Shown: piece by piece, positions 6,361 to 31,935 of the stretch
How positions within the stretch are numbered: position 1 is the first letter of the stretch
How the letters are laid out: each line of letters starts with the position of its first letter
Assembly: GCA_006503475.1 (NCBI GenBank)
Contig: RSEH01000339.1
Location: forward strand, 1 to 42,798
DNA: 42,798 bases
Reading direction: 5' to 3'
DNA from: Stentor roeselii
Lineage: Eukaryota; Ciliophora; Heterotrichea; Heterotrichida; Stentoridae
The notes under the pieces: model-generated
Databases searched by the model: none
The model's input: only the letters and a program-made list of their open reading frames with translations
Told to the model about the DNA's origin: nothing
Program-made: the position numbers and the translations under genes

Positions 6361-8325
6361 CTAACTAATATTGAAAGTGATGCTAAGATCTGATAAAATA
6401 CTATTTGACTTTTCAATAATAAAGTCCTTCCTGTGTGCTATATGTCTCAATCTTTTCAAACTATCCACTTTTTTCGATAACTGGTCATTTTCTGAATGCT
6501 TCAAATTAAATGTTGAATCAATCATTTTCAACATTATATACTTACTGTCATTGCTTTTGAACAAATATATTTCATAAATTCGATAATAATCAATCTTTTT
6601 AAGCTCACTAAGCTCACTATCAAAAATATAAATCCAATGAAATGAATCTGAAAATACAAACTTATTCTTTTTGAATTTTCCCATCATGATTTTCTGATCA
6701 TGATTTATTAATACCTTAGATTCCTTGAAGTTCTTAATTACTGATTTATTATATGCAGAATATGCTATTCTCTCAAAAGTTAAGGAAGCTTTAACATATG
6801 TAATTTCACCATCTGTTATATTATAAACTTTTTTGACTCTTAGCAAATCAGTATCAAGAATTAATATTTTACCAACACAGTTTCCACATAAAATATATGA
6901 TCCACAAAATGCCAAATTATTAATATAATATTTAAATGATCTACTACAAATATTACTCATTGATTTCAGACTATACAACCATACAGTTTGATAACCATAA
7001 ACAATAAGTTCTAGTTTTACAGAAATAGAAATATTTGAATAAGGAAAGCAATTCAATACACTTTCTTTAATAGATTTTTTAGTTTCAATATCATATAAAT
7101 CAATTTTACAGAGATTTCCTGCTATGAATATTTTTTTTTCTAATACTTGAATCGAATGAACCATAACTTGAAAATCAAAAGTTCTTAAAGACACCAAATT
7201 AGACTCACTCCACATTTTAATAGTTTTATCACGAGAAGCAGAAAAAAAATTTCTATTGATTTTACAATAGTCTATAGAATTCACTTGATCTGAATGAGCT
7301 CGTATATGATCAATAAGTCTAAATGTTTCTATATTCACTAATTGAATGAAACCATCGAAATCTCCAACCATCATTATGTGATTTTTTTTTGCATAGCAAC
7401 AACAGCTGATGATAATTGATATTAAATTTTTTGATTTTTTTTTAGAATTTTCGATGTTGAAGTTTGTGATGTTGCCATCACAACTTATAAATAAAATATC
7501 TTCGATTTTTTCTGTAAATTCAGCATACCTGATACCAGATTTCAAGGTAAGTTTAAATATTAGTGATTTTTTTAAGATATTCCAAAGTCTTAGTGTTCTG
7601 TCTTCTGAGCCACTTAAAAAATATAAACTATTTTCTGAAAAGTTCAGGGTTGTAATTGTATCATCATGACCTTTAAAAACAGTTTTAAGTGATTTCTTTT
7701 CTAGATTCCATAAGCAGATTAACTTATCATCTGCACCTGAAAGAACAAACTTTTTTGAAGAGTCAAGTTCAAGTGTTCTTATTATTGAACGATGATATCC
7801 AAGACAATATAATTGTTTTAAAGTTTTTGAACAAAATACACGAATTCGGCCATCATTTCCACCACTTATTAAAATATTTTGATCGTTTGAATGAAGTAAA
7901 ATAGTAAAAGTGCTTGTACAATTTGATAAAAATTTATTGAAACCTGATTTAAAATTCTTTTTTCTAAGTTTAAAGGGTGTTACTAATTTTACTGATTGTT
8001 TGCTAAGTAAGTGATTTATTTGAGTGGTAAAGTTAAAATTCTTTATATTTATATATGTATTTAAGTATCTTTTGTGATAAAATGACTTGATTATAGACAT
8101 TTGACTCAGAAATACAAACATAATATGCTTTTTGTACAAATACAATTTGGATGACTTTATTACATTTAAACGTTGTTTGATTTTTTTGTTGTACTCAATT
8201 ACTTTTGAAATATTTTTGATTTTTGTAATATTGTGAATAGAATTTTTGAAAATATGATCTTTTAAGTCTATTCCCATAATTACTTGACTTTGGCAAGAAC
8301 ATCTATATCTTGATGTATTCGACAT
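6361..8325 (-). CDS. WD40-repeat protein, no other recognised domain
   Basis: 654 residues, strongly enriched in Lys, Ile, Asn and Ser. The first ~140 residues show no recognisable domain. WD40 blades start near residue 143 with GGNDGRIRVF, then GADDKLICLWN and GSEDRTLRLWN, later GDFDGFIQLVN and SRDKTIKMW. Blades towards the C-terminus (to about residue 600) are degenerate but keep the 40-residue rhythm, so one 7-blade propeller plus extra blades is likely. WD40 propellers are protein-interaction scaffolds; no partner or process can be named. There is no kinase or membrane domain, unlike the next two WD40 genes. Base composition is markedly more AT-rich than the ABC or channel genes. Start ATG with A at -3; stop TAG. 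Transcribed divergently from the WD40-pseudokinase gene across a 3.2 kb gap. Confidence 0.85.
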   Translation of the reverse strand: MSNTSRYRCSCQSQVIMGIDLKDHIFKNSIHNITKIKNISKVIEYNKKIKQRLNVIKSSKLYLYKKHIMFVFLSQMSIIKSFYHKRYLNTYINIKNFNFTTQINHLLSKQSVKLVTPFKLRKKNFKSGFNKFLSNCTSTFTILLHSNDQNILISGGNDGRIRVFCSKTLKQLYCLGYHRSIIRTLELDSSKKFVLSGADDKLICLWNLEKKSLKTVFKGHDDTITTLNFSENSLYFLSGSEDRTLRLWNILKKSLIFKLTLKSGIRYAEFTEKIEDILFISCDGNITNFNIENSKKKSKNLISIIISCCCYAKKNHIMMVGDFDGFIQLVNIETFRLIDHIRAHSDQVNSIDYCKINRNFFSASRDKTIKMWSESNLVSLRTFDFQVMVHSIQVLEKKIFIAGNLCKIDLYDIETKKSIKESVLNCFPYSNISISVKLELIVYGYQTVWLYSLKSMSNICSRSFKYYINNLAFCGSYILCGNCVGKILILDTDLLRVKKVYNITDGEITYVKASLTFERIAYSAYNKSVIKNFKESKVLINHDQKIMMGKFKKNKFVFSDSFHWIYIFDSELSELKKIDYYRIYEIYLFKSNDSKYIMLKMIDSTFNLKHSENDQLSKKVDSLKRLRHIAHRKDFIIEKSNSILSDLSITFNIS

Positions 8326-11519: not shown

Positions 11520-14324
11520 ATGGCAACATCTAAGTCTCCTAAAAGAGCCAGACAAGAGATAATGAAAACTCTTGAAGAAGACAATGCCAGCGAAGAGTCT
11601 GTGCTTCAAAAGAAGATATATAAATACTACTCAAGGTACTCGAAATATCAACATAAAAGTTATTCATGGCCGATGAAAGTCTTTGAGAAACAACATTCGA
11701 GTCAGGTAAGATGCTGTTCTTACTCCCCCGATGGAAATTATTTAGCAACAGGATCAGGAGACAAAAGAGTTAAGATCTGGAATATAAAAGAGCAAAAAGA
11801 AGAGTTCAGCTTAAACGGACATTTAGATATGATTTATTGTTGCTCTTACTCTCCAGATGGAAATTATCTGTCAACTGGATCATATCAAGATATAAAAATC
11901 TGGAATATAAAAGAAAGAAAAGAAGAGTTCACTTTAAATGGACATTCAAGTTGGGTTAATTGCTGTTCTTACTCTCCTGATGGAAATTATCTAGCAACAG
12001 GATCAGAGGATAAATTAGTTAAAATCTGGAATCTTAAAGAACAAAGAGAAGAATTCGTTTTCAATCAACATTCCTATCCAATAATGAGCTGTTCTTACTC
12101 TCCTGATGGAAATTATCTGGCAACTGGATCAGAAGACAAAACGATTAAAATCTGGAATATAAAAGAACAAAGAGAAGAGTTCTTTCTCACTGGACATTCA
12201 AATTGGATTAAATGTTGTTCTTACTCTCCAGATGGAAATTATCTGGCAACAGGATCAGAAGACAGAACGGTTAAAATCTGGAATTTAAATGAAAAAAGTG
12301 AACAATTCACTCTTTATGGACATGCAGGTTCAGTATATTGCTGTTCTTACTCTCCTGATGGAAATTATTTAGCAACTGGCTCATTTGATAAAACAGTTAA
12401 AATCTGGAATATTAAAGAACAAAGAGAGCAGTTTACTTTTAATGGAAATTCATCTTGGGTTTGTTGTTGTTCTTACTCTCCTGATGGGTATTATTTGGCA
12501 ACTGGCTCATTTGATAAAAAGGTGAAAATCTGGAATATTAAAGATATTAGAGAAGAGGTCAGTCTTACTGGAGATTCAGTAAATTACTGTTCTTACTCTC
12601 CTGATGGGAATTATCTGGCGATTGGATCAGAAGATCGAATCGTTAAAATCTGGAATATAAAAGAACAAAGAGAAGAAATAAATTTGGATCTTAATCATGA
12701 AGAAAATAAAGATAGTAAATTTTGTGATTGGGAAAAATTTCAAATAAAGGAAAGATCTTCAATTACTATCCCAATATATTCTAAATATGGATTATTTAAA
12801 ATTGTATGTTGCGATAATGGTAACATTAGAGTTCTGAATAGTTCAAATGGTAAAGAAATCTTTGTTTTATCTTATGGTAACTCAAGTGTTAAAGGTTTGT
12901 TTTGTATTCAAAATGAAAGATTTCTAATAGCCCTTTACAAAAAAAACATATTTAAGATAACTTTTTGGAACAAATTATTATATATAATTCATGAGAATCT
13001 ATCAAGATTCATCATTGAAAGAAAAGATATTAAATTATTATTTAAAGATGCAAAAGTGGCCAAATTTATATTTGATTACAATAATGAATATAATCTAAGT
13101 AAAGTTAAAATTGAAATGCAACTTGTAAGTATAGTCAGCAAGTTTTTTTTTGAATCAATTAAGAATAGAAATATTCAAATGGCTCTGGATTTATGTAAAT
13201 ATATTGTTAAATTTGCAAAATTAAATTATAAAATTTGCCATCTTGAAAAGGATGTCAGTATCATCCTCACAAAATATTATAGTGATACAAAAAATAAAAG
13301 AAATGATATTAAAGGGAAATATGATCTACAGATATTAATGTTTTACTATGACACAATTAGAAAAAGTGATGAAAATCAAAAGATAAGGATTTTATTGAAT
13401 AAGCTAATCAAAATTAGAGAATTTGAAAATTTTAAGATTCAGATCTATGACCCTTGGAGCATTTTAGAAACGAAAAAGTTTATTAATATTGAAGAGCTCT
13501 CAGAAAATAATTTATTTAAAACAATAAAATATAAAGATTTTAGTATCGAATTTTTCATATCATTTTATTCTACAAGAAAAGTGCTTGTCAAGAAATATGT
13601 ATTAAATGAAAAAATTAGTAAAGAACGAAAAAGACTAATTATGATTGAGTTAAAAAAAGAAGCAAAGTGCTATGAGTTATTAGAAAACTATAGAAGTGAT
13701 AATAACTATTTTTGTGAATACTTTGGTTCAATTAATTTAAAAAATAATTTTTCAATAGTCATCAACAGTGATTATTTGGATCTTTTTACATTGATTGATG
13801 AATTAAAAATTCTTAAGTCAAAAGGTGAATATAATCTTCCAGTAACCCAGCTAGCAATTATTGTTAATTCTTTAGTTGAATCATTTGCATTTTTAGCAAG
13901 CCATAACATTCTACATCGTTCTATTAGTTCATCTTCATTATTAGTTGATGAAAATTTTAATTTTTCAATTATCGATTTTTATTTCGCAGCAATAAAAATT
14001 GATGATATATGGTATGAGTCTTTAGATAGTTCTTTAAATCAGTATAAATCTCCTGAAGAAGAAATAGAAAATTCGAAATTAGATCTAGAAAAATGTGATG
14101 TTTACTCATTGGGTTTAGTTATTCTTCAGTTAACTCACTTGGTAGATGTCTCAGAATTAAAGCAAAATTTAGAATCATATATTCAAGTACTGGAAAGAAT
14201 GAACTTGAAATGGTTGCAAACTTTACTTGGAAAGATGTTATGCAAATCTGAAGATCGTTTATACTTTTATCAACTTAGAAAATTTTTAGATTGTGAGGAA
14301 ACCATTTCAAATTCAATACATTAG
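11520..14324 (+). CDS. WD40-repeat protein fused to a kinase-like (pseudokinase) domain
   Basis: 934 residues. Residues 1-55 are charged. Residues about 60-387 hold eight WD40 blades, each with C-S-Y-S-P-D-G and K-I-W-N, followed by weaker blade-like sequence to about 490. A helical middle leads to a protein kinase-like fold near residue 668 onward: VLVKKY keeps the beta-3 Lys, KKEAKCYELL fits helix C, HRSISSSSLL (about 799) replaces the HRDxKxxN loop, DFY (about 819) replaces DFG, KSPEE (about 843) fits APE, and CDVYSLGLVILQL (about 860) fits helix F. Loss of the catalytic Asp and of the Asn/DFG Gly predicts no phosphotransfer, so I call it a pseudokinase; a signalling or scaffold role is inference. 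Start ATG after AT-rich leader with A at -3; stop TAG. Same strand as the WD40-channel gene 945 bp downstream. Confidence 0.85.
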   Translation: MATSKSPKRARQEIMKTLEEDNASEESVLQKKIYKYYSRYSKYQHKSYSWPMKVFEKQHSSQVRCCSYSPDGNYLATGSGDKRVKIWNIKEQKEEFSLNGHLDMIYCCSYSPDGNYLSTGSYQDIKIWNIKERKEEFTLNGHSSWVNCCSYSPDGNYLATGSEDKLVKIWNLKEQREEFVFNQHSYPIMSCSYSPDGNYLATGSEDKTIKIWNIKEQREEFFLTGHSNWIKCCSYSPDGNYLATGSEDRTVKIWNLNEKSEQFTLYGHAGSVYCCSYSPDGNYLATGSFDKTVKIWNIKEQREQFTFNGNSSWVCCCSYSPDGYYLATGSFDKKVKIWNIKDIREEVSLTGDSVNYCSYSPDGNYLAIGSEDRIVKIWNIKEQREEINLDLNHEENKDSKFCDWEKFQIKERSSITIPIYSKYGLFKIVCCDNGNIRVLNSSNGKEIFVLSYGNSSVKGLFCIQNERFLIALYKKNIFKITFWNKLLYIIHENLSRFIIERKDIKLLFKDAKVAKFIFDYNNEYNLSKVKIEMQLVSIVSKFFFESIKNRNIQMALDLCKYIVKFAKLNYKICHLEKDVSIILTKYYSDTKNKRNDIKGKYDLQILMFYYDTIRKSDENQKIRILLNKLIKIREFENFKIQIYDPWSILETKKFINIEELSENNLFKTIKYKDFSIEFFISFYSTRKVLVKKYVLNEKISKERKRLIMIELKKEAKCYELLENYRSDNNYFCEYFGSINLKNNFSIVINSDYLDLFTLIDELKILKSKGEYNLPVTQLAIIVNSLVESFAFLASHNILHRSISSSSLLVDENFNFSIIDFYFAAIKIDDIWYESLDSSLNQYKSPEEEIENSKLDLEKCDVYSLGLVILQLTHLVDVSELKQNLESYIQVLERMNLKWLQTLLGKMLCKSEDRLYFYQLRKFLDCEETISNSIH
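11715..12674 (+). repeat. 126-bp tandem coding repeat (eight WD40 blades)
   Basis: The codons for C/C-S-Y start at 11715, 11841, 11964, 12090, 12216, 12342, 12468 and 12588: spacings of 126, 123, 126, 126, 126, 126 and 120 bp. The DNA block coding SYSPDGNYLATGS is nearly identical between copies, including at third codon positions, which points to recent expansion or gene conversion. Blade 2 is one codon short and blade 7 two codons short. Confidence 0.9.
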
Positions 14325-15269: not shown

Positions 15270-18200
15270 ATGGAAGGCTTAGAATTGAAGCTTCTCTCCG
15301 GAACAGAGACAGTATCAGCATCAAAGAACCGAATGGACATCATAATGCGTGACCTACGCAAATGGAACCCATTCCACAACATCCCATTCGCAGGCCACAC
15401 AGGAGCCGTATGGTCATGCGCCATGACATCAGACAATTCAACTCTTTTTTCAGGTTCTGAAGACTGTTCAGTAAAGATCTGGGATGTAAAGTCCCAAGCT
15501 TTGCTTGGGACCCTTTCAGGCCACGAGGGATGCGTGAATGGCTTAGAAGTGACTTCAGATGATCAATTTCTTATCTCAGGTGACTGGGAGGGTAAAATTT
15601 ACATGTGGAACTGGAAAAGCCAGGAAAAAGTAGCAGAGTTTGAAGGTCATACAGCAGGAGTTTATTGTTTCGCAATGACTCGAGATGGAAAGTTTTTAGT
15701 CTCGGGCAGTGGAGACTACACTGCGAAGATCTGGAATATTCAAGAAAGAACTCTTGTGGCGTCGCTGGCTTGTGATGAAAACTCAGTCTTCGGATGTGCT
15801 GTTACTCACGATAGCAAAGAAGTCATTTGTGGAGGCTGGGGAGGTGAAATCCGTATTTTTGACTTCAGCTCTTTTGAAAAGACTGAATCATTCAACCCGA
15901 ATGCTGGAGTCGTTCAATGTTTAGGAGTCACTTCAGATAAGAAGTATGTTATTTTTGGGACTAGGAATAATTTGGTCCTGGTTTACAATTTTTCTGACAA
16001 GACTGAGTACTGCAGGTTCACTTCTCATGAGAACTGGGTAAGAAACTTGGTGATCATGTCAGACAATATTCACTTTATCACTGTCAGTGCTGATAAGAGT
16101 ATCAGAGTTTTTAATATCAGAGATAGCAAGGAAGAGTTGATGCTTGAGGGAAGTGAAGGTTATGTCTTTGGCGAGTATATCTCGAAAGATGGAAAATATC
16201 TGCTCACTGGCGCTTCTGATAAAATTATGAGACTTTGGACTGTCGGACAAGGAGTCAGAGCACATAAGTTAAAAGGACATGATAAGACTATCATGTCCTT
16301 AGCAATCAGTAAAGATAATAACTACGTTGTTACTAGTTCTGAAGACCAGACAGTTATCATCTGGAATATGAAAACTCATCAACATGCAAAACTCACGGGA
16401 CACTCTGGAACTGTATGGGCTGTCGCTTTGAGTAGTGATATGAAATATATTGCAAGTGGTTCTGCAGATAAGTCTTTGAAAATCTGGGATTTTAATGATA
16501 TGGGATGTATTGAAACCTTAACGGGACACTCGGCTACCATCTTTTGCGTCACTTTCACACCAGACTGCAAGAAAATCATTTCAGGAGGACAGGATAAAAA
16601 TTTGATAGTTTGGAGTGTGGAAGGACGAAACTTAGTTAAGACACTTGAAGGCCACACTGACACAGTTTTCACAGTAAAGGTCTCAAACGACAAGAATTTC
16701 ATAATATCAGGAGCCGCCGACTACACAATCCGTATCTGGGACCTAAAAGACCAGAAGCAAGTAGAAAAAATCGAGACCCGGGGAGGTATGATCGAAAGCG
16801 TAGCTTTAAGTTTCGACGACAAGTTCCTGGCATTAGGAGACCGAGCCTCGAAGGTGCAGATTTGGGACTGGAACGAGCGAAAGCTTTTAAAAAAGTTCCA
16901 TCACCATAAAAAATGGGTAAAAAGCGTAAACTTTTCATCAGACGGCAACATTTTCGCCTCAGCTTCAAATGATTCAACAGTTCGTCTTTGGAACGCGCAA
17001 GAGGAGAGACCCGAGCTGACTCTTCGAGGACACAGCAGCAGTGTTCGATGTGTGGGGTTCACAAGTGACGGAAAAAATGTAGTTTCAGGTGGAGAAGACG
17101 CTTGTCTTATCATTTGGGACGTCGCAGACACCAGTGCTGCTGACTTGACTGACATCGGAGGGCCGATTGACAGTTTCTTGTTCAAGGCGAAGATCAAAGG
17201 AAAGATTGCTCCAACTGAACTTACCAGTGAACAAGTTTTCAGCGACTTGAGGGTCAACCTTGCACATATTTACGCTTATCTCGGGTATGAGGACCTTCTT
17301 CTTGATGCCCTTCGGCTGGGCACTGACATACGCGTTGACGGCGAAGGCCACTCCCCGCTTTTTTACGCTCTTCAGAGGTCTACACAAGGATGCATCGATA
17401 ACATCCTCGCATTCATGATTGAAATTAAAGAAGAAAACCTTGAAAAGTTCTTAAACTTCGGAAATGCCATTAGAGACGACTTCGCCATTTTACTTGATAA
17501 CAGCTCAGTACAACTTCCTGAATTCTTACAAGCTGCTTATTATAAAGTCCCGAATCTTCCGAATTTCGCTGCTCCCAATCAGGACTTGCCGATTATTTAC
17601 TTTTCTAATTCAAAGAATTTGGACCCGGGTAATTTCGTTTATGATGTCAAAGCAGTGCCTGAAGATATCAAAGAAATTCCTATTGAGTTCAGGGCTTTGC
17701 CTTTTGCTATTCATTATGATAGCGGGTCTTTAGGTAGCATTGACTTGTTAGACAGCATTGCCCAGTGCCCGAATTCGAAAATTCTAGAGACTGACTTTGT
17801 AAGAGCTTTTATTCGGACCAAGTGGAACAATCTTTGGCTGTTTACTTTGATCCTGACAGGACTTATGTGGAGTAACGTCGTGTTGATGTCGATTTTGATG
17901 ATTTTAGCTACTTTTAAAGATGCAGAGACCAAGCCTCTTGACCGGTCCTACATTCCGATAGTCTTCGCGTTTATCACAGTGAACGGACTGATCACTTTTT
18001 ACGAAATCGTGCAGGCCATGTCGACCGGGTGGTCGTATTTCATTGACTTCTGGAACGTTATCGACATGTTACGCTTTTGTCTCTGTTTTTCTTGGAGTTT
18101 CTTGATCTGCAGTTATCCTCATGAAACTCCTGGAATTTACTATCTCGGCTTTTTCATGGTCATCATCAACTTCTTCAGGTCACTTTCTGGCTTTCGTGCT

Positions 18201-18776
18201 TTTGACTCGACACGGTTTTACACTCGGCTGATTTTCAGAGCTTTTGATGATTCAATCGCGTTTGTCTTGGTGTTTTTTTACTCAACTGCCGCATTTGGAA
18301 TGATTAATTACTCGTCGATGGACCCGCAGACGTTCAAACAACCTGACTTTTCACTTTTTTCTATCTGGCAGGCCCCTTACAACCTGAACATGGGCGACAT
18401 TGTCTCTGACCCTACTCCTCTTCAGTATGTTTACTTCATGCTTGCCTCTGTTATTAATGTCATCATCATGCTCAATCTTTTGATCTCAATTCTAGGAGAT
18501 TCTTTTGAGTCTTTTCAAAATGAAGCCCAAGGAATTGACTGCCTTGAAATGACTGAGTTTGTAATTGAACTCGAAACACTCATGTTTTGGAAGAGAAATA
18601 GCATTCAACCGAAAAAGTTTCTTCAGGTTTGTAGGAGTTTGGAAAGTGTTAATGCTGGGGAATGGGAGGGAAGGTTGAAATTGATTCTTGATAGTAATAA
18701 GAGTTTGAGGAAAGAATGCCTTCTTAACTTTGAGAAACTGAATAAGAAGATTGATATTCTGATGAATAAGAAATAG
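15270..18776 (+). CDS. WD40-ankyrin-like-TRP-type ion channel fusion
   Basis: 1168 residues combining a large WD40 region with a six-segment cation channel. Residues about 40-625 hold fourteen blade units, from HTGAVWSC...KIWD to HSSSVRCV...IIWD, enough for two 7-blade propellers. Residues about 650-720 look ankyrin-like (YLGYEDLLLDALRLG, HSPLFYAL). The channel starts near 857: S1 (LFTLILTGLMWSNVV), S2 (IVFAFITVNGLITFYEIV), S3 (FWNVIDMLRFCL), S4-S5, a pore loop WQAPYNLNMGDI near 1031, and S6 INVIIMLNLLISILGDSF near 1060. FWNVID and the LNLLISILGDSF end of S6 are typical of TRP channels; the short S1-S2 loop excludes a polycystin-2 TOP domain. Probably a plasma or ciliary membrane cation channel gated through its cytoplasmic propellers (inference). 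Codon use is GC-richer than the other WD40 genes. Stop TAG; no intron visible. Confidence 0.88.
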   Translation: MEGLELKLLSGTETVSASKNRMDIIMRDLRKWNPFHNIPFAGHTGAVWSCAMTSDNSTLFSGSEDCSVKIWDVKSQALLGTLSGHEGCVNGLEVTSDDQFLISGDWEGKIYMWNWKSQEKVAEFEGHTAGVYCFAMTRDGKFLVSGSGDYTAKIWNIQERTLVASLACDENSVFGCAVTHDSKEVICGGWGGEIRIFDFSSFEKTESFNPNAGVVQCLGVTSDKKYVIFGTRNNLVLVYNFSDKTEYCRFTSHENWVRNLVIMSDNIHFITVSADKSIRVFNIRDSKEELMLEGSEGYVFGEYISKDGKYLLTGASDKIMRLWTVGQGVRAHKLKGHDKTIMSLAISKDNNYVVTSSEDQTVIIWNMKTHQHAKLTGHSGTVWAVALSSDMKYIASGSADKSLKIWDFNDMGCIETLTGHSATIFCVTFTPDCKKIISGGQDKNLIVWSVEGRNLVKTLEGHTDTVFTVKVSNDKNFIISGAADYTIRIWDLKDQKQVEKIETRGGMIESVALSFDDKFLALGDRASKVQIWDWNERKLLKKFHHHKKWVKSVNFSSDGNIFASASNDSTVRLWNAQEERPELTLRGHSSSVRCVGFTSDGKNVVSGGEDACLIIWDVADTSAADLTDIGGPIDSFLFKAKIKGKIAPTELTSEQVFSDLRVNLAHIYAYLGYEDLLLDALRLGTDIRVDGEGHSPLFYALQRSTQGCIDNILAFMIEIKEENLEKFLNFGNAIRDDFAILLDNSSVQLPEFLQAAYYKVPNLPNFAAPNQDLPIIYFSNSKNLDPGNFVYDVKAVPEDIKEIPIEFRALPFAIHYDSGSLGSIDLLDSIAQCPNSKILETDFVRAFIRTKWNNLWLFTLILTGLMWSNVVLMSILMILATFKDAETKPLDRSYIPIVFAFITVNGLITFYEIVQAMSTGWSYFIDFWNVIDMLRFCLCFSWSFLICSYPHETPGIYYLGFFMVIINFFRSLSGFRAFDSTRFYTRLIFRAFDDSIAFVLVFFYSTAAFGMINYSSMDPQTFKQPDFSLFSIWQAPYNLNMGDIVSDPTPLQYVYFMLASVINVIIMLNLLISILGDSFESFQNEAQGIDCLEMTEFVIELETLMFWKRNSIQPKKFLQVCRSLESVNAGEWEGRLKLILDSNKSLRKECLLNFEKLNKKIDILMNKK

Positions 18777-20349
18777 AAGAGTTTAGGTTAATTAGCTTAA
18801 GGATTTTAGAATTTTTAGAGATTAAGGGTTGATTTAGATTGTTCAATCAAAAGCTTTGAATGATTTGGACTTTTGTGTGAAGGAGTAAATGATCAAATTA
18901 CCTACTCCTGCATGTTGATATTATGCTAACGATGGATATTTGAAATGACCAGCTGATCAGCTTTAATACTTCAAAGCTATAAAGCAGCTATGATTGAGAT
19001 GAAGAGTTAGGAGGGTATTTAAAGACTTCATGATAATAAATTCAGACTTGGTGATATCAACTGTGGTTTCATCCAAAAGAAGTAAAGGAAAAAGAAATGA
19101 TCTGTAAATCATATAAAAAAAAATCAAATTACTGAGCCTGGTAGGTAAGTGTGTGAATTATATCAACCATGGAATATCGATTTTAGGCTCTAGCCACTCA
19201 TGCTCTAAACATTTAATAAGAGAACTTTAATTGACAGACTCTACAGGCTTGAACCGAACATGCTTTTATTCACTTACCAGGATATATAGTATGTGCAATT
19301 GTCAAAGATAATATTTTGAACAGATTAAGAGCTAAAAATATTTTTTAATGTTTATCAAAGAATTTTTGATATAAAAGATCTGAAAAATTGTTAATAAATG
19401 CAAAAGCTTATATTGAAATCTTGTTGATCAATTTTAAATAAAGAAGTCCAACTATTATTATAGAAAATCAAAGTCAAGTGCTCTTACTTCTGCTATATTC
19501 TTTATGATTACTTTAAAGTTTGGATCTCTCGCACTGGAAATAGAGTTGTATAGTACTATACTCTCCTATTTTGATAATTTAAGTATGTACTTTAAACTTA
19601 TCTTCAAATATTTCTCTAATTCAAATTATTATTTATTTTAATATACATAGTTTGACTAGAAATGCAAGGTTTGGTTATTCTAAGATATTATTTCAATCCT
19701 AAATAATGATCACTATAATCAATGACATAGAATCATAATAGTTTAAAGTTTCGCAAGGAATTTGATAAATTTATTTAAGGAAAATTGCTATATAATAAAG
19801 TCTTATGCATATTAGAAATAAGATAAAATTAATAAAAGAGGATAATATAATATAAAAAAACTATAAAACCATTGAAGATTTTTTATTACTACTTTTGTAG
19901 GATTATCTAAGGATAAAAACCAATAGGATACTCGTTTCCTGCCCATTATTTTCTCAATAAATTTAATCATGAAATCAGCGTCAAAATCTCTATTTGATAT
20001 AAATCACTTTAATTAGTCATAATCCTATTTAACTAATAATATCATTTCACTTTTTAAATTGATAGTATATTTACCAAATAAACATTCATCAATAAGGTTG
20101 AACATCTATGCTAAAAAATGTGCTAATCAAAATTCCTTGAACCAAAATTCCAGCTTCTTCAAGCACTTTAATTTTGAAAATTTCATTAAATTAATTTTTT
20201 TCATAAATTATTTTCAAAACATCCTCAAAAAAAAAACTCAGGTCTTTCCAGGTTCTGCTTTGAAAATGCATAAAAATTTTAAAATCCACTAAAAAGTATA
20301 AAAAATCCCTCAAAACAAAATTTCAGCCATATTGAATTTATCCTATAAA
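18777..20349. other. Intergenic, upstream of the giant repeat-protein gene
   Basis: 1573 bp. The part from 18830 to about 19290 is less AT-rich than the rest, with an imperfect inverted pair CCTGGTAGGTAAGTG (19138) and CACTTACCAGG (19273-19283). I find no convincing tRNA, snRNA or reading frame. The remainder is very AT-rich and leads into the start at 20350. Confidence 0.45.
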
Positions 20350-23300
20350 ATGTTGTATGCCTTGTTGTTTATTTTCTCTTGTTCTGCGCAAGATCCGATC
20401 ATCGGCAGTTTGAAAATCGAGAGTTTCTCCCCTGAAACCTCGAAGTTGCCGAGGTCCTCGATGGAAACGTTGACTTTGAGTTTCTCGATCGAAATTAATG
20501 AAGGCATCCAGATTCCACTAGAGCCTGCTCTAGTTAATCTTCTAGTTTACAGATATGATGATTTATGGAAGAACATAACCACCCAGGCTTTTGAGTGGCA
20601 GAGTGGAGACTTCTCAAATATCTTCTTGCCTGAAGGAGAGTTCTATTTAAGTCTTTATTCAAGTAACTTGAACCCTTGGATTGGAAGTCGTTTTTACGTT
20701 GAGGAGCCCAGAGCTGACCTTAGAATGAATGAATTGGCTAAGGATAGTTTTTTAATGGTTTCCAATAAATTCTGCTTTACTCTTTTAGATCAGTTTCAAA
20801 ACTTGTGGAATCAAAGTGTTAAGAACTTTCATTGCTCTACAGGCGGAACGGACCTGGCTTATGAAGGAGATGAACTTTGTGTTAATCAAATCTTTATGGA
20901 AAGTGGAGCTGGGTCTATGTATGTCGAATGCAATGAGGAGTTTTTTGAGTTTGGTATTTATGTTAATAAACTTGAGATGAGGTTTGAAAAGTTTCAAGCT
21001 CCTAGTTTTAGCACAGACTATCTTAATGCTTGTGTTGTACTTGTCTGTAATGATACCAGATATGTGGAAGAAGATGGAAATTTCCAAGTTTCGATTGAAG
21101 TCAGAGAAAATAAATTAGAAAATGATCTGCCTTGCTCTGGATTCGTCCTTGATGGAGCCATAAACTCTTCATTTCATTTCGGAAAAGCAAACTTTGAGAT
21201 GATTAAGGTACTTTCAAATGGAAGGTTTGAGCTTGCTGTTGTGTCTTTTGGCTTTCCAATAATATTTTCTCAGAGATTCATGGTGACGAATTTCATAAAA
21301 TCTGTAGAACTATATCCATCTTCTAAACCTATGCATTTTCATTACTTTGAAATGCTTTTAAATGCGATTGGTGATGATGGGAATTTGTTTAAAAGGCAGT
21401 TTGATTTGGAAATGAAATTTAATGATTTTTATTGCATCAGTCACACATATGATTGCTATAATTCAATATGCTATAAATGTCTTCCGTTAAGACTACGAAA
21501 TGAAACTATATTGTTGAAGCTTGTAGACAAAGTATATGAGAGCTATATATTTGAGCAGAATCATACTTTTACTGTTCTTTTTAATCCAAATGCTAAAGTA
21601 ATGATTTATATTCATGATTCTAATAACTATTATCCTTATCCTTCTATGAATTATGATAGTATTTATATAAGGTACTATATACAGGATGATTATCAATTAT
21701 TTTATGATATACCTTGCTATGTAGACAACAATTATATTGAAAGAAAATGTATTTCGGAAAGATGCTCTTATAATGAATCTGTTGAGAAAATTCCTACTTA
21801 TTGTAACAGATATTGGTATGATCAGACCTATAGTTATACAGATTGGAATTATATAAACTCTATTGGAGAATACGTTTATTCGATTCCTTTTATAAATGAT
21901 TTAAGTGCAGAAACAGAATTAATAAGCATTTCATCTTTTGTTTACTATACAGAATTTTATAATATTGAAAATATATACTCAAATGAAGAATCTACATTTA
22001 TTTTAAAACTTAAAGGACCTGATGGATTTCCTTATATTAAATGTAATGATGTCAAAATTGATTCTAATGGCCTTGAAAGTAATTTAACTTTTCGCCTATG
22101 TGAAGGATATCTAGAATCAAGTATGACTTTTAATTCAAATGGGTATCATTGGGTAAAAATAAGTTCAACTCATATGAAAGAAACAAGTGACTACTTATTT
22201 TTTGTTGAACCAAAAATAGAAAGAAAAATAAAAGAAGTTCAAATAAGCACTAATTTGAATACTACTGATTTATTTTATATTCTCTTTACTACTTCATCAA
22301 TTTATGATGAAGATCTAGATTGCCTTCCTGACATTATTATCCCAACTATTAAATTTATTAATAAAGAAAACAATGAAAAGTATAAAATTAATTCAGAAGT
22401 CTCTTGCGAAAATAAAACTTATAACATCACAAGCCTCAGTATAGTCAATCCAGGAAAATACTCTGTTGAAATCCATTCAGATCAATTCAAAAGAAAAATA
22501 CTTGACAGCCAAATAATAGTTGAAGAAAAGATCTATGATATAACAATAAATCCTCTTCAAGCAATCTATAAAAATCACCCTTTTGAAATTTCATTCAATA
22601 TATTCAGCTCCCCTTCTACATCATTCCAATCAAAAAATACATTCTTATTAGAATCTGAGAGTATTTTCGGTCAAAACACTTCAGTTAACTCAAAATGATT
22701 ATTGAAATTTTACATATTTTGTAGCATTGAAGGATCAATAAATTTGAATATAAAAGATTTTCATAGTGCCTTCTCCAAGGATTTCATACTCAACGTAAAA
22801 TCAAACAATGATAAGCAACTTCTTATTTCATCTATTTCACCTATTGTAAGTTTTATTTAGCCAAGTGATTCAACAGACTTTTTTAAAATTCAAGTAAATT
22901 GCAGTGGTTCAGCAGGCAATTTTGAATATATAATTGGATTAATCCCTATTGATACAGTCTCAGGAACTATGATTTTGGGAGCAACAACGAAAATATCAAA
23001 TGAAACTTTAATTGAATTTGAACATTTAAATATCGAATCTTCAGGGACTTTTTTAATTTCGGTTGATTCTTCTGATGATTTATCAGGAACCAGTTATTTT
23101 CCAATTATAATAAAAAATCGAATACTTAATGTAACACTGGAAACTAGCAGTGAAATCGCAGCATATACTGAAGCGACCTTCGTAGTTCGGATATTTGGAG
23201 AGGATGAAAACCTTTATATCGGAAATATCGAAGTGCTTTTAATTGTTACAGACTTCATTGGAGAAGAAAAGATTTTTGCAAATTATGGAGAAGCTGTATT

Positions 23301-26300
23301 TAAAGGGTATTTCAATAAAACTGGAGCAAAAATCATCACTGCAAGAATTAAAGAATCAAACTTCTCAGTTTCGGTTGTAATTGTAATAATTGATCCGAAA
23401 TTTTCTGCTGTTTTTGAGAAAATTAGTCCGATAGTAATTTGTAATTAGCCTTCATTGAGCAAAGACTTCTTTAATTGTTCTGTAAAAATCGTTGACTCTT
23501 TCACTCAGAAGAAAATGATGGGCATTGAAAAAAGACTCAGACTTTCTTTGATACCTGTTGATGAATCAAGATGTTCTGGAAGTGTTATTCAAGGAGACAT
23601 TGAAGTAAATAGCATTGATGGAATTGCTAATTTTGTAAATATTAAAATACTTTCTTCAGGCAAATTTAAACTTGCAGCGAATTATTCGAGTGTAGAAATT
23701 GGTTATAGCAGAATTTTACCAATTACTAACTTTATTCACTCTACAAAGATAATAAATCCTGAAGAGCCATATTTTGTTTATGATATTGTTTATTACAGAA
23801 TAGCTGCTTATGGAGATGATAATAATATTTTTTTGAGATACATAAATAGTTATATCCAATCATCTTCTGGCGTTGCCATTACTGGTCAATATTTTGATTA
23901 CGGTTATCATTCTATATGGTGCTATTCTTATATAACTTGTATGGGAAATTATACCATAGAATTAATGATCTATGATTTTGAAAAATTTTTAAATGAATAT
24001 GAAATTGTTTCTGCACCTAATCCATATGCATATTTAAATATAGTATTATTAGATTACTATAGAGACTATCCTTTTCCTTCTTTAAGCTCGGATTATTTCG
24101 GAGGATTAGAACAGCCGGAGTACATTTGTATTCAGCTCAAATCATTAAGCATGGATTATATGTTTTATTACTACAACTCTTTTTGCAACAAACTATCTGT
24201 TAATATTTTATGTGAATCAGGTAGCTGTTCAAGTGAAAAACTGGAATATGAATACTTTGACTTTTATAGATGGCTTCATTACGACCATTATCACCATGAG
24301 TATTATTTGAAATGTTTTAAAGTGAAAATTCTGAGTAACGGTGACTTTAAATTAATATTTTCATTGCCAGGAGCTAAAGATGTAGTCCTGTCTGATAATG
24401 GTAGAGAAAAGATCTTAAATATAACAAATTTTGTAAAATCAATAACTTTTCAAACTATATACTTAAATCCTATTTTGAATGAAGATTTTCAAGTTCTTTT
24501 CCTAGTCTATGGAGATGATGACGTTTTATATTCGAAAAAAAATAATCTTACAATTAGTTCTGATTGCTTTTCCGAAGAAACAATAGTACTATGTGAAAAA
24601 GGAATTGCTTTGACTAATCTAACTTTTACTATTACTGGGTCATGCTCAATTAATGTAAAGTCAACTCATAACAATCAAAAGTCTTGGACGTTTAATGTAA
24701 CATCTCAAGCAAAAGATTCATCAAAGACAAAGAGCTTAGAAGTGAACCCAATAGTAATTTCTAATTAGCCAAAGACTTCAGATGATCAATTTAACATAAC
24801 ATTAAACAAGGAATCCATTCCTTATACAGATTCATTTCCAAATCTCACAATTATGCCCCAAGATAAGTCAACTGGTTCTGTAATAAAATGTGCTAAAATC
24901 ACAAACGATTCATTATCGATCAACTATAATTCCTGCCGAATTTTATCATCAGGAAGTTTCTTTATAGTTTTTCAAAATATTACTTTTGATGAGACTTTAT
25001 TAAAAATTTCAAATAAAGTGAAATCAGTATTGTCAGTTTCAAATAAATCTCAAGTTTTACTCAACGAGTTATTTGAAGTTAAGGCATTGGTTTTGGGGGA
25101 GGATAATTTAACATATCATAACTTTGCATCAATTGAAATCAGTAATAATGAGATTATTGGACAAAAAAGATCAACTTGTAAAAATAATCAATGCACCTTC
25201 CTTGTTTCATGCATAAAAGAAATGAGTTTCAATTTGATTTACATCATCTATTCTCTAAATAATGATACTCAATATTTTGAATCATCAATGTTAAGATGCA
25301 TAGCAGGAGAAAAAAATTTTATGTCACTTTCTCTGGTGCAAAATACGGAAACATTAATTCAATATCTAAATGCTTCAAGTGTTTTCGAAATTAATATTCA
25401 ATTTAACTTAACTAATATTAATAAATACATAAATCAACCTGTGCAAATAAAAATCTTACCAATCATAGAAAACTATAACCAAGAAAATATATTAATACTT
25501 AACACTCTTACTTTAGAAAACTCATCATTAATTTTTGATAATATGACCATAGAAAACCCAGGAAAGTACCTAGTTTTTGCATGCCTTTCAAACATTTTAC
25601 ATATAAGCTCATTTATTTATCGTCAAGAATTGATAGTGAAAAGTCCTGCTAGTTATATAAAGATTTTTTTGCCAGAAAGAATAAGTGAAATAACAAATTC
25701 AAAGATTGAAGTTAAATTATTTAGTTTGAGTAATGATCTTTATACAGATCAATCATTTGAAGTCACACTAGTAGTTAAAGATACTGAATCAAAAGAATAT
25801 AAATCCACGATCAAAAAAGGAGTATCTTTATTTTTGATCAAGCTTTTATTGTCAAAAACTTACTCTTTTTTAGCGAGAGTAGAAAACTTAAATTTTAATG
25901 ACTCAATACAAGATGTTACTTTTGAAAAGAGCGAAGTAGACTATAGTCTAAAAATTCTAGGAGTGAATAGCGAAGATCTCATGGATTTCCCATCTCTTAG
26001 TTGGGACTCATCTAATATACTAGTCGGAGTGTATGATATTTCTGGAACTATCTTTTTGAACTCAGTAAATGGGTTAATTCTAAACCTGAGTCTTGTTCCA
26101 ATATCTAAATTCTCAGGCTCAATTATAGAAGGTGCACTATATACATATGTAACTAATGGCATAGCCAATTTCACAAATATTTTTATAAAATCTAGTGGAT
26201 TCTTTGAAATAAGTGTAACCTGCATGAGCTGCATTGAAACCAAGAGTCAAGTCTTTGAAATTACAAACTTTTTGATAAATTATGGATGTGTCGGATGTCC

Positions 26301-29300
26301 AGTAGAAAAAAAATATCCAATATATAAAATAAATGATTTATTTATCAACACTACTGCTGATGATCTTAATAAATATAAAAGGCCAATAAACGTAAATTTT
26401 TATGATGTTTCAAATATTATCATAAATTTAACAAGTGTTGAGGGGCAAATAAAATGGTATGGTTATAAACTTGGGCGAGCAAGTTTCAAATTTTCTATTC
26501 TTTCACAGAATTACAGCTTTGAGTTCGAAATAGTAGAAAATCCTGATTCAATTATAATTATAACTGAGAATATAGTACCTCGAAGAAGTAGCGATTCTTT
26601 TTATATAGATGTGACACTTCCTAATGACTTTTCCTACATACTTTTTAACTTTACCATCGAGCTTGTGACTTTAAATCGATCAAAGCCCTTGATGAGTACT
26701 TCAACTACAAATATAATAAAAGATTGGGATAGAATGTGGGAAATAAGTTACTGGTACTCTGAATATTTAAGACAAAGATTTTGTCGTTTCAGTAATATCA
26801 GAATTTATAATTCAGGCTTTTCTTACATACGAGTGACAATGCCTGGTCTCAGACCTGCTAACAGTAATTTGTTTAACATAACCAATTATGTAAAGGAAAT
26901 AATTGTAAATGTTGACAACTTCACAGTGCCAATGTACTATTCAGTTGATCTTGCAATAACTTTGATAGCTGAAGATGACGATCTTTATAAAAACTTCTGG
27001 TCGATGATAATAATGGCTGATAATTTAGTAGGTGATAACAATCTAGACAACTACAATTTAACAGGTCTCATTTCTAGAGAAATCATGTTTGATACTCCAG
27101 GTCAAAAACAAGTAAAAATTTACAGTGAGAATAACCTAGTGAATACCACATTTGTCATCGAAGTGCTAAATAAAACTGCAGAATCTCGATGTTCAATATC
27201 ATTTCCTAATGGTAAACCATCTACAAGCAGAGACCTTTTCTCAATCAGAGTCAGTCTTGTTGATTTCTATGAAGGTGTTGAAAAAGACTACAAAAGAGGA
27301 GGCGAGGTTTCATTAGAGCTTGAACCAATTAATGAAACAAATCTTTCTGGCACAGTTATATCGCGTTCAGGAAGGGAAAAGATACTAAACAGCAAAGCAG
27401 AATTTAATGATATTTCAGTTTACTCATCGGGATTCTTTTATTTTACAGCTCAGCCACAGTTTTCATCCCCTTGCACATCAGAAGGATTTTCAGTGACAAA
27501 TTTCATCAAACGAATCCTCGTTAAATCAAGTCACAAAGCCCAATCAGCTAATTTTGACATAAGCCTTGAAATTTCTTTGCTAGGAGATGATGAGAACCCA
27601 TTTCTAGGCAATGACTTGTTATTAATCCACGATAAGCGACTTTCAGAAATAAAAGGAACAAATTCATTATTTGTTTCAAATCCAAGCCTTAATGCAACCA
27701 TTTATTTCCCTTCAGTTGGAGTTAAGTATTTGCAAATAAATTCAACAATATCTAAAGCAACTTCTTCAGTCACGATTATTTCAATATCGAAACAAAAACT
27801 GGTTTTATCCCAGACTCAAGTTTCCTTGACCAACATCAACCCACAGTCATTTAAAGTCGACGTTTGCAATACTGAAGGCACTTTGATAGAATCTCAGCAT
27901 TCTAATTACACGATAACTTTATCAACTCAGCCGGTAAATAGACTGAAAGGAGAACTTACTGTACAAACCATAAACGGAACTGCATTATTCACTAATTTGT
28001 ATGCGATAAAGCCCGGCATTTTCAGCGTTTATAGTAATAAGAAGAATTTTATTGAAAGTGGCCAGTTTGGGATCAACATCGAGCATTCTTTGCAAAAGAT
28101 GAATTTTACCTTTACAAGTTTTATTCAAACTTCAGTTATTTTCAATTTGCAGGTTACTTTACTGAAAAGTGACAACAGTCTATTTAAATACCCTTGTATA
28201 GTTTCTTTATATTCAGATGGACTTAAAGGAAATCTTACAAAAAATAATACTAATGGAGTAGTAATCTTTGAAATTTACTTTGAAACTGAAGGAGACAAAA
28301 CTATAACAGCCAACTGTAGCGTATTCCAAGATTCTACTGATGTGAATGTAAAAGTTTTCACAACGACTGACGATCTTTGCATCAATCCATTCAATGCATC
28401 TCACTGTCGAGTCTGCATGAAAAAGTCTTTTCCTATAGACGGTAGATGTGAGTGCATTAAGAACAGCATCAAGCGAAAAGTAGTGGATGGTTGTTATTGC
28501 ATCAGTAATAGCTTTGAATACGAAAACGTTTGCTATGCAGATCAAAGACGATTCTTCAAACCTTCTCAGTTGCATGGGTACTTCTCAGAAGACTATAAAA
28601 ACATAATCGTTGACTTCGACACAAGAACAGATGCAATGGTAGGTTCAAGTTGTATCACTCAGATATCATTCCCAGAGACTCTCGAAGACCAAATCATCAA
28701 CTGCATCTGGAAAACTGATTCCACTTTCGAAATTTCGTTACAGAAAGTCCTCCTTGACAGCAATTTAACAATAAAAGTAAACGGGTTCAAATTCTACTCA
28801 TTAACAAACACGATAAGCTACGATTTGAAAGAACTTTCTGTTCTAATTCTCAAGAAATTCAACTATCCAACCCCAACAGCTCAAATCATATCCCCTTCAA
28901 ACATTTCCTCTCAATGCAATTCAGAAAACATAGATATTTCATCAAAAGAAAAAAACTCTCTTTTCAACTATTCATGGGCAGCATCTTCAACTCCATGGAG
29001 AAAAGAAATTGAGTCATTTATCAACTCGACTAAATCATTTTCCTTCACAATTCCCAGCCAGCTGCTGCTCCCGACGCAACTTCAACTCTTCCTGACAGTA
29101 TCCGACCCGATTTTCAACACAAAGTCCGAAGCTTTTCACCGTCTGTCGATCTCCTCAAGTAAAATTCTGATTGTGTCCTTTTCCAACCCAGGCCCGTTGA
29201 AATATTCTCTTTCAGACGAGTTTTTAATCCAGTCTGTGGTGAAAGAGTCCTGCGGCACTCAAGAAAATTATAACTACACCTGGGGCTACTCACTTGTGGG

Positions 29301-31935
29301 CAGAACTCCAGACATTGACTTTCAAAAGATTTTGCTTAACAGACAAAGAGCAGGGTCTTTGAAGATCTTGCAAAATTCATTATCTGTCGGGCAGTATTCT
29401 TTTACAGTCAAAGCATCATCTCAGTCGATATCAGGAAGTAGTTCAGTTGATGTAGAAATAGAGTCTAGTCCTCTAAGCTTGACTCTTTCGAAGTCGAATG
29501 GGACGGTTTCAGGAAATTTGGATGTGACTATCTATGCGACTGCTATGAATCCAGATGACTTGGAAGAAATGGTGAATGTGGATTGGACTTGTAATGAGCA
29601 GGCTTCTGGATTTAAGATCGAAGGAAATGATTTGATTTTGATGAAAAATGCTTTTAGGGACAAAACTTATACTTTCACTGCAACTGCTACCACTTCGAGT
29701 AAGAGGCTGCAAAAAGCACTTTCTTTGACAGTCGATAATCAAATCAATACTGATGTTTCTTTGCAGAGCTTTGATAGGAAAATCAATATTGATGAAGAAA
29801 TCAAGTTAGTAACTACTATTCGAAGTACTGGACAACCTAGCTTTGAATGGAGTATTGAGGAGCCAGTAACACTTCCTTATATATCTTCACCTTATTTACT
29901 AATACCTGCGAATACTTTAGTTGCTGGAAAGGCCTACAAAGTTACTGTTAAAGCTACAGTGAGTGAATATGATAAAACTGAAAGTAGTATATGGATCAAC
30001 ACTAATATGAACCCAAGCTGCTCAGGAGTGTCAGTAGAAACAATTAAAAATAAACTAAAACTCATTGCAAAAGACTGCCAAGACCCAGACGATGACATGC
30101 CTCTAACTTACATATTCGGGATAAGATTCGAGTCTAAAAATCTATGGATAACAAATACACTTTTTTCAAGTACTCTAACAACTTCTCTTCCTTCCTTCAC
30201 CAAGCAAGTATTTTGTAAAGTATGTGACGATCTTCACTCATGCAAGATTTATTTTTCATCGAACCTAACTCTTCGCACAAGACACCTCAACAGCTTCTCC
30301 AGTGAATTTTTATCTGAAGTGAGGAACCCCGAATTGGTTCCAGTCAACATTCTGATCTACTCTGGCAAAGCTGAAACAGTTGCTGAACTTCAGCTTGTAT
30401 TTGAAGTCTTTTATGATTATTTCATGGGAGAGATAATGAGCGAAGACACATTCAACATATTTTATGAATGTTATCAGGCCATCTTCGTTAGAGATGAACT
30501 GGCTTCAGATGAAATGATGAGAAATGGAACTGATTTTATACTAGGGATGACTGAAAAAGAAGGATTTGAGATATCCAAGGAAAATAGTGAAAAACTGTTG
30601 AGGACTATCAAAATATATAAGGATCGATTAACTGTTGCAGAAGTTGTTCAGTGTATTGGAAGAATTGCTAATCGGATGTTCAACGGAAAGCTGCCTCAGG
30701 ACTATCTGGAAGTAGAAAAAACTCTTGTTATTATCAAGGAAATCGGAAGTCAACTTCCTGGGCTTAGCTTAAAATTCGAATCAATGTCGATAGAAATTCC
30801 ATCAACAAGTATTTTTGATGAATTAGCTGTTTATGATATTCAAATAATTCAATTCCAAACTATGAATACTTCAGTTATAGATTTAAAACTACTCTACTCA
30901 GGGTCTTACCATGAGTTTTCCTTGAAAAACTCAGCCTTGAATGACTCTTGGGCTGAACTTGACCAGATCATAAACCTGAAAATTCAAGGTGAGTTCAATA
31001 AAAATCTAAGCTATGATTGTTTGCTTCTGAATCAATCTACTTCTAATCAAACTTGCAAAGTTGATAAAATAAGTAAAAAATCAATTAAACTTAAAGTGAG
31101 TGCTGAAGGAAGTTTTATCATTATGCAAGATGATAAAAGTGAATCTTTTGAAAGTTCTGATGAATCTTGTAAAATTGGATACTACAATATCGGTATTATG
31201 GTTGGTGTGTTCGTAGTTTCATTAAGTTTAGCAACTCTGTCATTGATTTTTGGAAAAAAGGATCAAAATAAGTCTGACGTCGTAAATATGAGATCAATTT
31301 TTTTGCCATCGAGTTTCTTTTATACAATTAAAAAGACATCAAAACTCATTTCATTGTTAGAAATGATGACAATATTTTATATCCTTTTATTAATCATGAA
31401 TGTGGTTATAAGCTTTATGATGAATATCCCAGAAGATATCAGCTTCGACCAAAAGTCACTGAAGGCAGCAGTCATATCATGGGCAATCTGCCAGAGCTAC
31501 TCAATTTTAATTTATTTCGTCTTCAGGACGAATCAATATGCAAATATGAAACCTTTAGTCTTTATCATGCTATTTTCCTCTATTTTGTTTATTTGTGTCT
31601 TGCTAATTACCATAATTTCAACAAAGTATTGCTTGGGATACTCTTTAGCCATACTTCAACTTTATTTGGTTTTACTAGGCTTAGAGATAATGATAGAGCT
31701 AGTTTATGCTTTCGGTTCATTGATTATAATGAAGTTAATAGTGACTGAACCTAAATCTTCTCCTGAAATTTCTTTTAAATTTGAAAATTGCCAAACCACT
31801 GATAGAGGAAAAGAGTTATGTAGGCTAGAAGAAGTTGTACCTCCTTCAATAATCCCTGAACTGATTGAAGAAAATTCTTATGAGTATAAAATATGCCTTT
31901 CAGTAGAAAGCATAATTGCTCAAGATAATAAATAG
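20350..31935 (+). CDS. Giant secreted/membrane repeat protein with REJ-like region, polycystin-1-like
   Basis: Spliced from 20350-22845, 22861-23433, 23449-24753 and 24769-31935: about 3846 codons. The ATG at 20350 opens a signal peptide (MLYALLFIFSCSAQ). The ectodomain repeats a unit of about 200-230 residues marked by TNF(I/V)K(S/R) (nt 21284, 23727, 24423, 26262, 26880, 27496), G-D/E-D-x-N-L-(F/Y), and a G-x-A-x-F-x-N-I...S-S-G-x-F stretch, like tandem Ig-like modules. A Cys-rich piece (nt 28370-28560) precedes REJ-like sequence (nt 28860-30290). Membrane segments lie at about nt 31190-31255, 31361-31424, 31466-31522, 31555-31620 and 31636-31740 (possibly two). No canonical HLT GPS motif is visible. 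The ectodomain has many N-glycosylation sequons. An in-frame TGA at 22696-22698 is unexplained, so the gene is either intact with a sense TGA, truncated, or misassembled. Likely a cell-surface adhesion or receptor protein (inference). Confidence 0.8.
22696..22698 (+). other. In-frame TGA inside the giant repeat-protein gene
   Basis: Frame is open on both sides (…T-S-V-N-S-K then L-L-K-F-Y-I-F) and the protein repeat pattern continues after it. No GT…AG of 15 or 16 nt spans it. Either a rare sense codon, a real stop or mutation, or a base error. Confidence 0.8.
22846..22860 (+). other. 15-nt intron 1 (GTAAGTTTTATTTAG)
   Basis: Phase 0, between codons for I (in SISPI) and P (in PSDS). Its last codon in frame is TAG, and coding sequence of the same repeat family lies on both sides in the same frame. 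Size and ends match heterotrich introns. Confidence 0.93.
23434..23448 (+). other. 15-nt intron 2 (GTAATTTGTAATTAG)
   Basis: Phase 0, between I (in KISPI) and P (in PSLS). Same size, phase and repeat position as intron 1; one base differs from intron 3. Confidence 0.95.
24754..24768 (+). other. 15-nt intron 3 (GTAATTTCTAATTAG)
   Basis: Phase 0, between I (in EVNPI) and P (in PKTS). Differs from intron 2 at one base and sits at the equivalent place in the repeat unit. Confidence 0.95.

Follow-up and report, generated by a model that had tools for sequence, protein, structure and literature searches.

What becomes of an ion channel when beta-propellers stand where its cytoplasmic arm would be, and what could such propellers do? 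A gene of the heterotrich ciliate Stentor roeselii raises both questions. The gene occupies positions 15,270 to 18,776 of contig RSEH01000339.1 (assembly GCA_006503475.1), and the window analyzed here is the whole 42,798-nucleotide stretch in which it lies. Its single reading frame encodes two predicted WD40 propellers, a linker, and a predicted TRP-type channel. Animal TRP channels function in heat, touch, and chemical sensing, and their cytoplasmic arm often consists of ankyrin repeats. We find that the WD40–TRP fusion is a feature of the lineage rather than a single oddity, and we consider how the propellers may act on the pore.

A Single Frame Joins Propellers, Linker, and Pore

The frame runs for 1168 codons from ATG to TAG with zero internal stops. 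All 29 of its tryptophan codons are TGG; thus, neither a reassigned code nor reassigned stop codons need be assumed for this gene. The parts of the frame, with residue numbers and the basis of each assignment, are as follows.

15270..18776, forward strand: complete open reading frame of 1168 amino acids, with 14 WD40 blades, linker, and TRP-type channel; same architecture in paralogs
15387..16268, forward strand: predicted propeller 1, blades 1–7 (residues 40–333); blade hidden Markov model (HMM) and Pfam WD40
16269..17147, forward strand: propeller 2, blades 8–14 (residues 334–626)
17148..17789, forward strand: whole cytoplasmic linker, or membrane-proximal region (residues 627–840); conservation in paralogs
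17265..17456, forward strand: ankyrin-like stretch of the linker (residues 666–729); Ank_2 in the close set, weak DARPin profile matches
17847..17903, forward strand: predicted S1 (residues 860–878); hydropathy
17952..18008, forward strand: predicted S2 (residues 895–913); hydropathy
18057..18113, forward strand: predicted S3 (residues 930–948); hydropathy
18132..18188, forward strand: predicted S4 (residues 955–973), then a conserved S4–S5 stretch; hydropathy at the looser cut-off only, and alignment
18249..18305, forward strand: predicted S5 (residues 994–1012); hydropathy
18366..18398, forward strand: predicted pore helix and selectivity filter WQAPYNLNMGD (residues 1033–1043); alignment, at the TRPV3 pore position
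18438..18494, forward strand: predicted S6 (residues 1057–1075), VINVIIMLNLLISIL; hydropathy and alignment
18522..18593, forward strand: stretch after S6 at the position of the TRP helix (residues 1085–1108), lacking the TRP-box tryptophan; alignments
18600..18773, forward strand: C-terminal tail (residues 1111–1168), possible coiled coil; heptad signal in relatives

The WD40 region comprises 14 consecutive blades of 41–42 residues each, arranged in two sets of seven (residues 40–626, 587 amino acids). The blades were first found by eye and then re-found by an HMM seeded from those same blades. Independently of that model, the Pfam WD40 profile matches at E = 1.3e-105, and 12 stretches pass on their own. 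The tandem arrangement of blades, each about 42 residues long and with WD and GH marks, together with this significant match, places the region in the WD40 family. Fold prediction, proposed beforehand as a check on propeller number and run for propeller 2 only, returns the ring of four-stranded blades typical of WD40 beta-propellers. Specifically, the ring is seven-bladed, with a predicted local distance difference test (pLDDT) score of 91 and a root-mean-square deviation of 1.0 Å from a solved propeller; the input was an alignment of four propeller stretches from the window, and the other propellers therein favor a propeller outcome.

The blades of this protein are mutually diverged, sharing 6–18 identities per 42 residues at offsets 5–9, apart from one value of 2 and one of 3. 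The comparison of blades by offset was a look at whether duplication of a seven-blade block gave rise to propeller 2. Offset 7 has a mean score of 56.4, which is among the higher ones, and offsets 10 and 13 score higher with fewer pairs. Across eight close members of the family described below, gaps occur at 10 of the 587 WD40 positions, and the length of the rings therefore appears constrained.

Between the propellers and the membrane lies the linker (residues 627–850 in nine aligned sequences: 39% mean identity, 14 of 224 positions invariant). An earlier reading of this DNA from its letters alone (hereafter, the sequence-only reading) had described about 585 residues of WD40 in fourteen blades, an ankyrin-like linker, and a channel, all in one frame. 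The count, the length, and the single frame have held up. The linker has fared less evenly: Ank_2 is found at E ≤ 1 in six of eight close-set members, a set that includes this protein (best, 2.1e-5), and a profile, A1, matches DARPins around positions 29–91, weakly in every stretch, but this protein by itself gives no Pfam ankyrin match at E ≤ 1. For the architecture overall, we consider it nearly certain that one frame encodes a predicted double propeller and a TRP-type channel.

The Membrane Region Resembles TRP-Superfamily Pores

Kyte–Doolittle hydropathy predicts six segments within residues 860–1075 at a cut-off of 1.2; at 1.6, five are called and S4 is not. With the pore loop placed between S5 and S6, the predicted topology is that of TRP channels, S4 being seen at the looser cut-off only. 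Pfam Ion_trans matches the C-terminal half with 30.5 bits against a 25-bit cut-off. The arginine or lysine at every third position that marks a voltage-gated S4 is not found in residues 955–973, which, by eye, contain one arginine. Residues 1040–1043 form the filter stretch N-M-G-D, and S6 takes the form NVIIMLNLLISILGDS. The filter residues align with the TRPV3 pore in both profile and single-sequence alignments, and 36 of the 39 aligned family members retain G1042 (the channel alignment left out two fetched frames, L009 and L043).

A profile of the membrane region built from those 39 members (A2) carries the assignment. Searched against the PDB, it matches TRPV3 first (4.6e-11, positions 2–243 of 249), then TRPM8 (3.1e-9) and polycystin-2 (1.1e-8), followed by TRPV1, TRPM2, TRPV2, and TRPA1. 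The best 60 of 247 PDB rows all belong to the TRP superfamily, 59 of them by name (TRPV, TRPM, TRPA, polycystin); the remaining one, “Inactive,” we take to be fly TRPV. With the single sequence as query, TRPV3 again comes first, weakly (2.6e-4; 7.2e-4 in another run), and “Ion transport protein” and voltage-gated sodium channel entries are close behind, from about 0.0023. It is the 39-member profile that places the domain nearer, by sequence, to TRP channels than to six-segment channels of other kinds. Among the 39 members, Pfam Ion_trans is found in 35 and PKD_channel in 9.

Judged by sequence, the pore domain is that of a TRP-superfamily channel with no secure subfamily: TRPM8 and polycystin-2 score not far behind TRPV3, which makes a TRPV assignment insecure. 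The sequence-only reading had called S6 TRP-like and the whole a six-segment channel with a pore motif, which it quoted, between S5 and S6; both descriptions agree with these results. It had also named failure of the C-terminus to fold as a channel as a possible refutation, and the TRP match across the membrane region answers that concern as far as sequence allows. In all likelihood, the putative channel domain is a working cation channel.

A Large Family in One Genome

We searched the 44.4-Mb assembly, in whose 522 contigs the window is contig C275, bases 1–42798. With the full-length protein as query, 1173 candidates came up, and the 40 that were scored yield at least 128 matching stretches, several of them often falling in one gene. 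The channel half finds at least 82 (82 scored of 219 candidates), a count that includes this gene and counts one degenerate copy twice. From these matches, 41 frames were fetched, namely L001–L037 from the full-length search, which favors WD40 carriers, and L041–L044 from the channel-only search regardless of WD40. WD40 blades stand in frame with the channel in 40 of the 41 (37/37 from the full-length search and 3/4 from the channel-only search). Four further loci, on contigs C183, C339, C4, and C2, pair a channel match with WD40 matches on one strand, in frames of equal length. The genome thus holds at least 44 fused genes, 40 fetched and 4 by coordinates, and across 38 members the membrane region is 21–50% identical to that of this protein. 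Recurrence in paralogs rules out a chance open reading frame or an artifact of gene prediction, and the fusion is a lineage feature.

Several members and relatives stand apart. The match of L009 is confined to the front half of the channel profile, and L034 extends past its contig end. In L043 (490–3531, forward strand), the fetched member without blades, the channel match is split by a gap of about 200 residues, and there is no Pfam Ion_trans match at E ≤ 0.1. The degenerate copy, on contig C3 (99317–100422, reverse strand), survives in pieces 51 and 58% identical with several in-frame stops, which suggests birth and death within the family. Contig C425 (14.8 kb) carries two long WD40–TRP genes of opposing orientation, L021 and L022, which are 90.7% identical over 1784 aligned codons. 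Besides the WD40–TRP family, a genome search with Ion_trans (at least 162 matches; 150 scored of 344 candidates) brings up many frames of about 1400–1860 amino acids with several Ion_trans matches each, which look like multi-domain channels. A scan of viral contigs and prokaryote genome contigs, with eukaryotes outside its scope, found no relatives of the channel alignment.

Blade number varies among members and tends toward multiples of seven. When blades inferred from spacing are added to the detected ones, 17 of the 26 frames uncut at their 5′ side have a multiple of seven (14 in fourteen frames, 21 in two, 35 in one); outright-detected blades alone give multiples of seven in 12 of the 26. 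The nine frames off a multiple are L011 (25), L012 (16), L013 (22, including a stray match inside the channel), L024 (15), L026 (15), L036 (15), L041 (12), L042 (13), and L044 (26). Another 14 of the 41 frames begin upstream of the fetched stretch (L018 at a contig end), and their counts are lower bounds: 4 stand at multiples of seven (21, 28, 28, 35) and 10 do not. Related frames are non-independent, and we therefore assign no probability to the multiples of seven. These numbers are most simply read as whole rings having been gained or lost, though that is not proven. In an unrooted tree, L001–L008, all of them two-propeller members, group together with support 96/94. With labels derived from array spans, the two-propeller label shows clustering (4 changes versus a shuffled mean of 14.0), and the three-, four-, and five-propeller labels show none.

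What Might the Propellers Do?

We propose that the protein is a subunit of a tetrameric TRP-superfamily cation channel whose cytosolic propellers bind partners and influence the gate by way of the linker. The sequence-only reading had raised the idea that the propellers might serve as a sensor or tether in the cytoplasm that controls the pore. Four subunits would form the pore, which is probably a Ca2+-permeable cation channel. Each subunit would hold two seven-bladed propellers in the cytosol, giving the tetramer eight rings on short ankyrin-like stalks. The propellers would most likely bind cytoskeletal, ciliary, or signaling proteins, an arrangement that would anchor and control the channel from the cytosolic side. 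Movement or binding of a partner could then be relayed by the linker to the post-S6 helix and from there to the gate, as with the ankyrin arms of NompC. There, compression of the cytoplasmic ankyrin arm reportedly pushes the TRP domain and opens the pore (PMC8186909). We regard the proposal as a whole as evenly poised between right and wrong, and its step of direct action by the propellers on the gate as plausible, if a shade under an even chance.

A number of results weigh against the proposal. The full-length single-sequence model has a pLDDT of 35.6 and is unusable for the arrangement of propellers and pore. No ligand of the propellers is identifiable from sequence. As L043 shows, blades are not indispensable to every member. 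Position 1043 of the filter is acidic in 10 of 39 aligned members and otherwise variable, and Ca2+ permeability or selectivity may therefore differ between members. The classical TRP box has a conserved tryptophan after S6, which is missing in some subfamilies and which the superfamily does not require; none of the aligned members has a tryptophan at that place. Finally, a heptad signal in the last 40 residues is present in six of eight close members (at most 33 of 1000 shuffles reach it) but absent in this protein (231/1000) and in L005 (127/1000).

Conservation bears on what the parts do. Among nine members, mean identity is highest in the S5–S6 region (53%), with 39% in the linker, 37–39% in the propellers, and 26–27% at the ends. 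Three of six paralog pairs computed are unsaturated at synonymous sites, and their ratios of nonsynonymous to synonymous divergence (dN/dS) are about 0.28 (L021/L022), 0.39 (L029/L033), and 0.24 (L014/L018). These values show purifying selection on family members. This gene and its nearest paralog, L002 (52% identical), differ at proportions of 0.32 of nonsynonymous (pN) and 0.79 of synonymous (pS) sites, the latter saturated; pN is 0.27–0.36 and pS 0.76–0.82 in each of four regions.

The closest competitor treats the propellers as a passive scaffold that places the channel at a site (the cilium base, the cortex, an organelle) or collects signaling enzymes and has no action on the gate. The varied blade number, the existence of a member with no blades at all, and the superior conservation of the pore fit arms that vary over a gate that works independently. 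However, linker and propellers are conserved to about the same degree, and the near absence of length change in the WD40 region of the close set hints that geometry matters. Sequence cannot separate this scaffold from gating by the propellers; we think it rather unlikely, yet it deserves serious weight.

Alternatively, the propellers could be ligand sensors of diversified specificity, in an expanded chemoreceptor-like family with one set of arms per stimulus. The family is indeed large and deeply diverged in its membrane region, and its blade number varies, as such a role might produce. Yet the blades are not near copies of each other, unlike those of the WD40–kinase gene next door, and there is no sign of positive selection, dN/dS being below 0.4 over whole frames in all three unsaturated pairs (single sites could still differ). 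We judge this role improbable.

A degenerate or non-conducting, channel-like membrane domain would account for the weak single-sequence match to TRPV3 and for the variable filter of the family, but it sits poorly with purifying selection and with an S5–S6 region that is the most conserved part of the protein; we give it very little credence. That adjoining WD40 and channel genes are read through by chance or yield separate transcripts is next to inconceivable, given one ATG-to-stop frame and a fusion that recurs in 40 of the 41 fetched frames, some of them 21–23% identical in the membrane region. Separate transcripts were the other refutation named by the sequence-only reading, and the recurrence answers it as far as sequence allows.

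Returning to gating by propellers, a wider and tentative idea follows the family as a whole. This ciliate lineage may have rebuilt the TRP cytoplasmic arm from beta-propellers, in at least 44 genes seen and perhaps about 80, with subunits that step from two propellers through three and about four to five. The arms would be modular intracellular sensors or tethers that gate different channels by different cytosolic cues. We lean toward doubting this idea in its full extent. If true, tetramers would carry 8 to 20 rings, and the family could help to explain, at the molecular level, how these large single cells come by such varied mechanical and chemical behaviors. WD40 rings of varied number over one pore type also amount to a natural experiment on whether an arm serves to hold, to sense, or to push. 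In their heterotrich host, these are candidate channels for touch, contraction, and habituation. Feeding-based RNAi is reportedly in use in Stentor (PMC10762896), and mechanoreceptor potentials were reportedly recorded there by Wood (1982, 1988; cited in PMC7935092).

Neighboring Genes in the Window

A span of about 12.4 kb contains three WD40 genes, at 6361–8325, 11520–14324, and 15270–18776. The first (reverse strand) encodes a 654-amino acid WD40 protein with no Pfam channel match. The second (forward strand) is a WD40–kinase fusion with eight near-identical blades, in which a CSYSPDGNYLATGS-type core is repeated, followed by a kinase-like domain (Pkinase, 1.2e-10). Its near-identical blades suggest recent repeat turnover. 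Elsewhere in the genome, L038 likewise has blades and a kinase domain.

Downstream on the forward strand, 20332–31935 holds a large repetitive surface-protein-like gene whose frame is broken. Three in-frame TAG breaks end 15-nucleotide GT...AG stretches (22846–22860, 23434–23448, and 24754–24768) whose removal keeps the frame, and these stretches are probably introns; an earlier TGA at 22696–22698 is not accounted for by 15-nucleotide introns. Stentor has introns of 15–16 nucleotides and a standard code (PMC9505925); together with long open frames and the standard code of the channel gene, the three 15-nucleotide breaks agree with a heterotrich host close to Stentor. Further on, 33354–40628 (forward strand) encodes a 2424-amino acid cysteine-rich repeat protein. 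In it, a CSCNHLTTFGYG stretch that resembles a GPS autocleavage motif precedes segments that look hydrophobic by eye.

Comparison with Known Systems

The sequence-only reading had called a double propeller on a TRP channel an unusual architecture. We found no description of a WD40–TRP fusion in a search that covered mostly non-subscription papers; domain-architecture databases may well list such fusions uncommented. Specifically, none appears in the available portions of PMC9505925, PMC7935092, PMC5068960, PMC8670190, PMC3681921, and PMC10762896, and the words “WD40” and “channel” are absent from the main text of PMC9882060. “Unusual” needs a qualifier, because within this genome the architecture is one of a large family. 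Each part is known separately; having found no description of it, we take the fusion of WD40 rings with a TRP pore to be what is new.

Known proteins resemble it in part. The WD40 repeat protein 2ymu differs in that its entry has no membrane part. The neighboring WD40–kinase gene and L038 share the placement of a WD40 array N-terminal to a signaling domain in the same genome; the effector there is kinase-like, and the WD40–kinase gene in the window has blades that nearly repeat one another. TRPV1–3 share the six-segment topology, the S4–S5 stretch, the filter glycine, the LN-(L/M)-LI core of S6, and the helix after S6. The TRPV N-terminus consists of six ankyrin repeats, whereas here 14 WD40 blades in two propellers and one short ankyrin-like stretch take that place and the TRP-box tryptophan is absent. 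In NompC (TRPN), 29 ankyrin repeats form a spring. The WD40–TRP protein has no such spring, its arm being made of propellers, and nothing found in it points to a microtubule tether or to force gating. NompC is a candidate for how the protein may work: there (PMC8186909), as in the architecture predicted here, a long cytoplasmic repeat arm is joined to a TRP pore by a linker.

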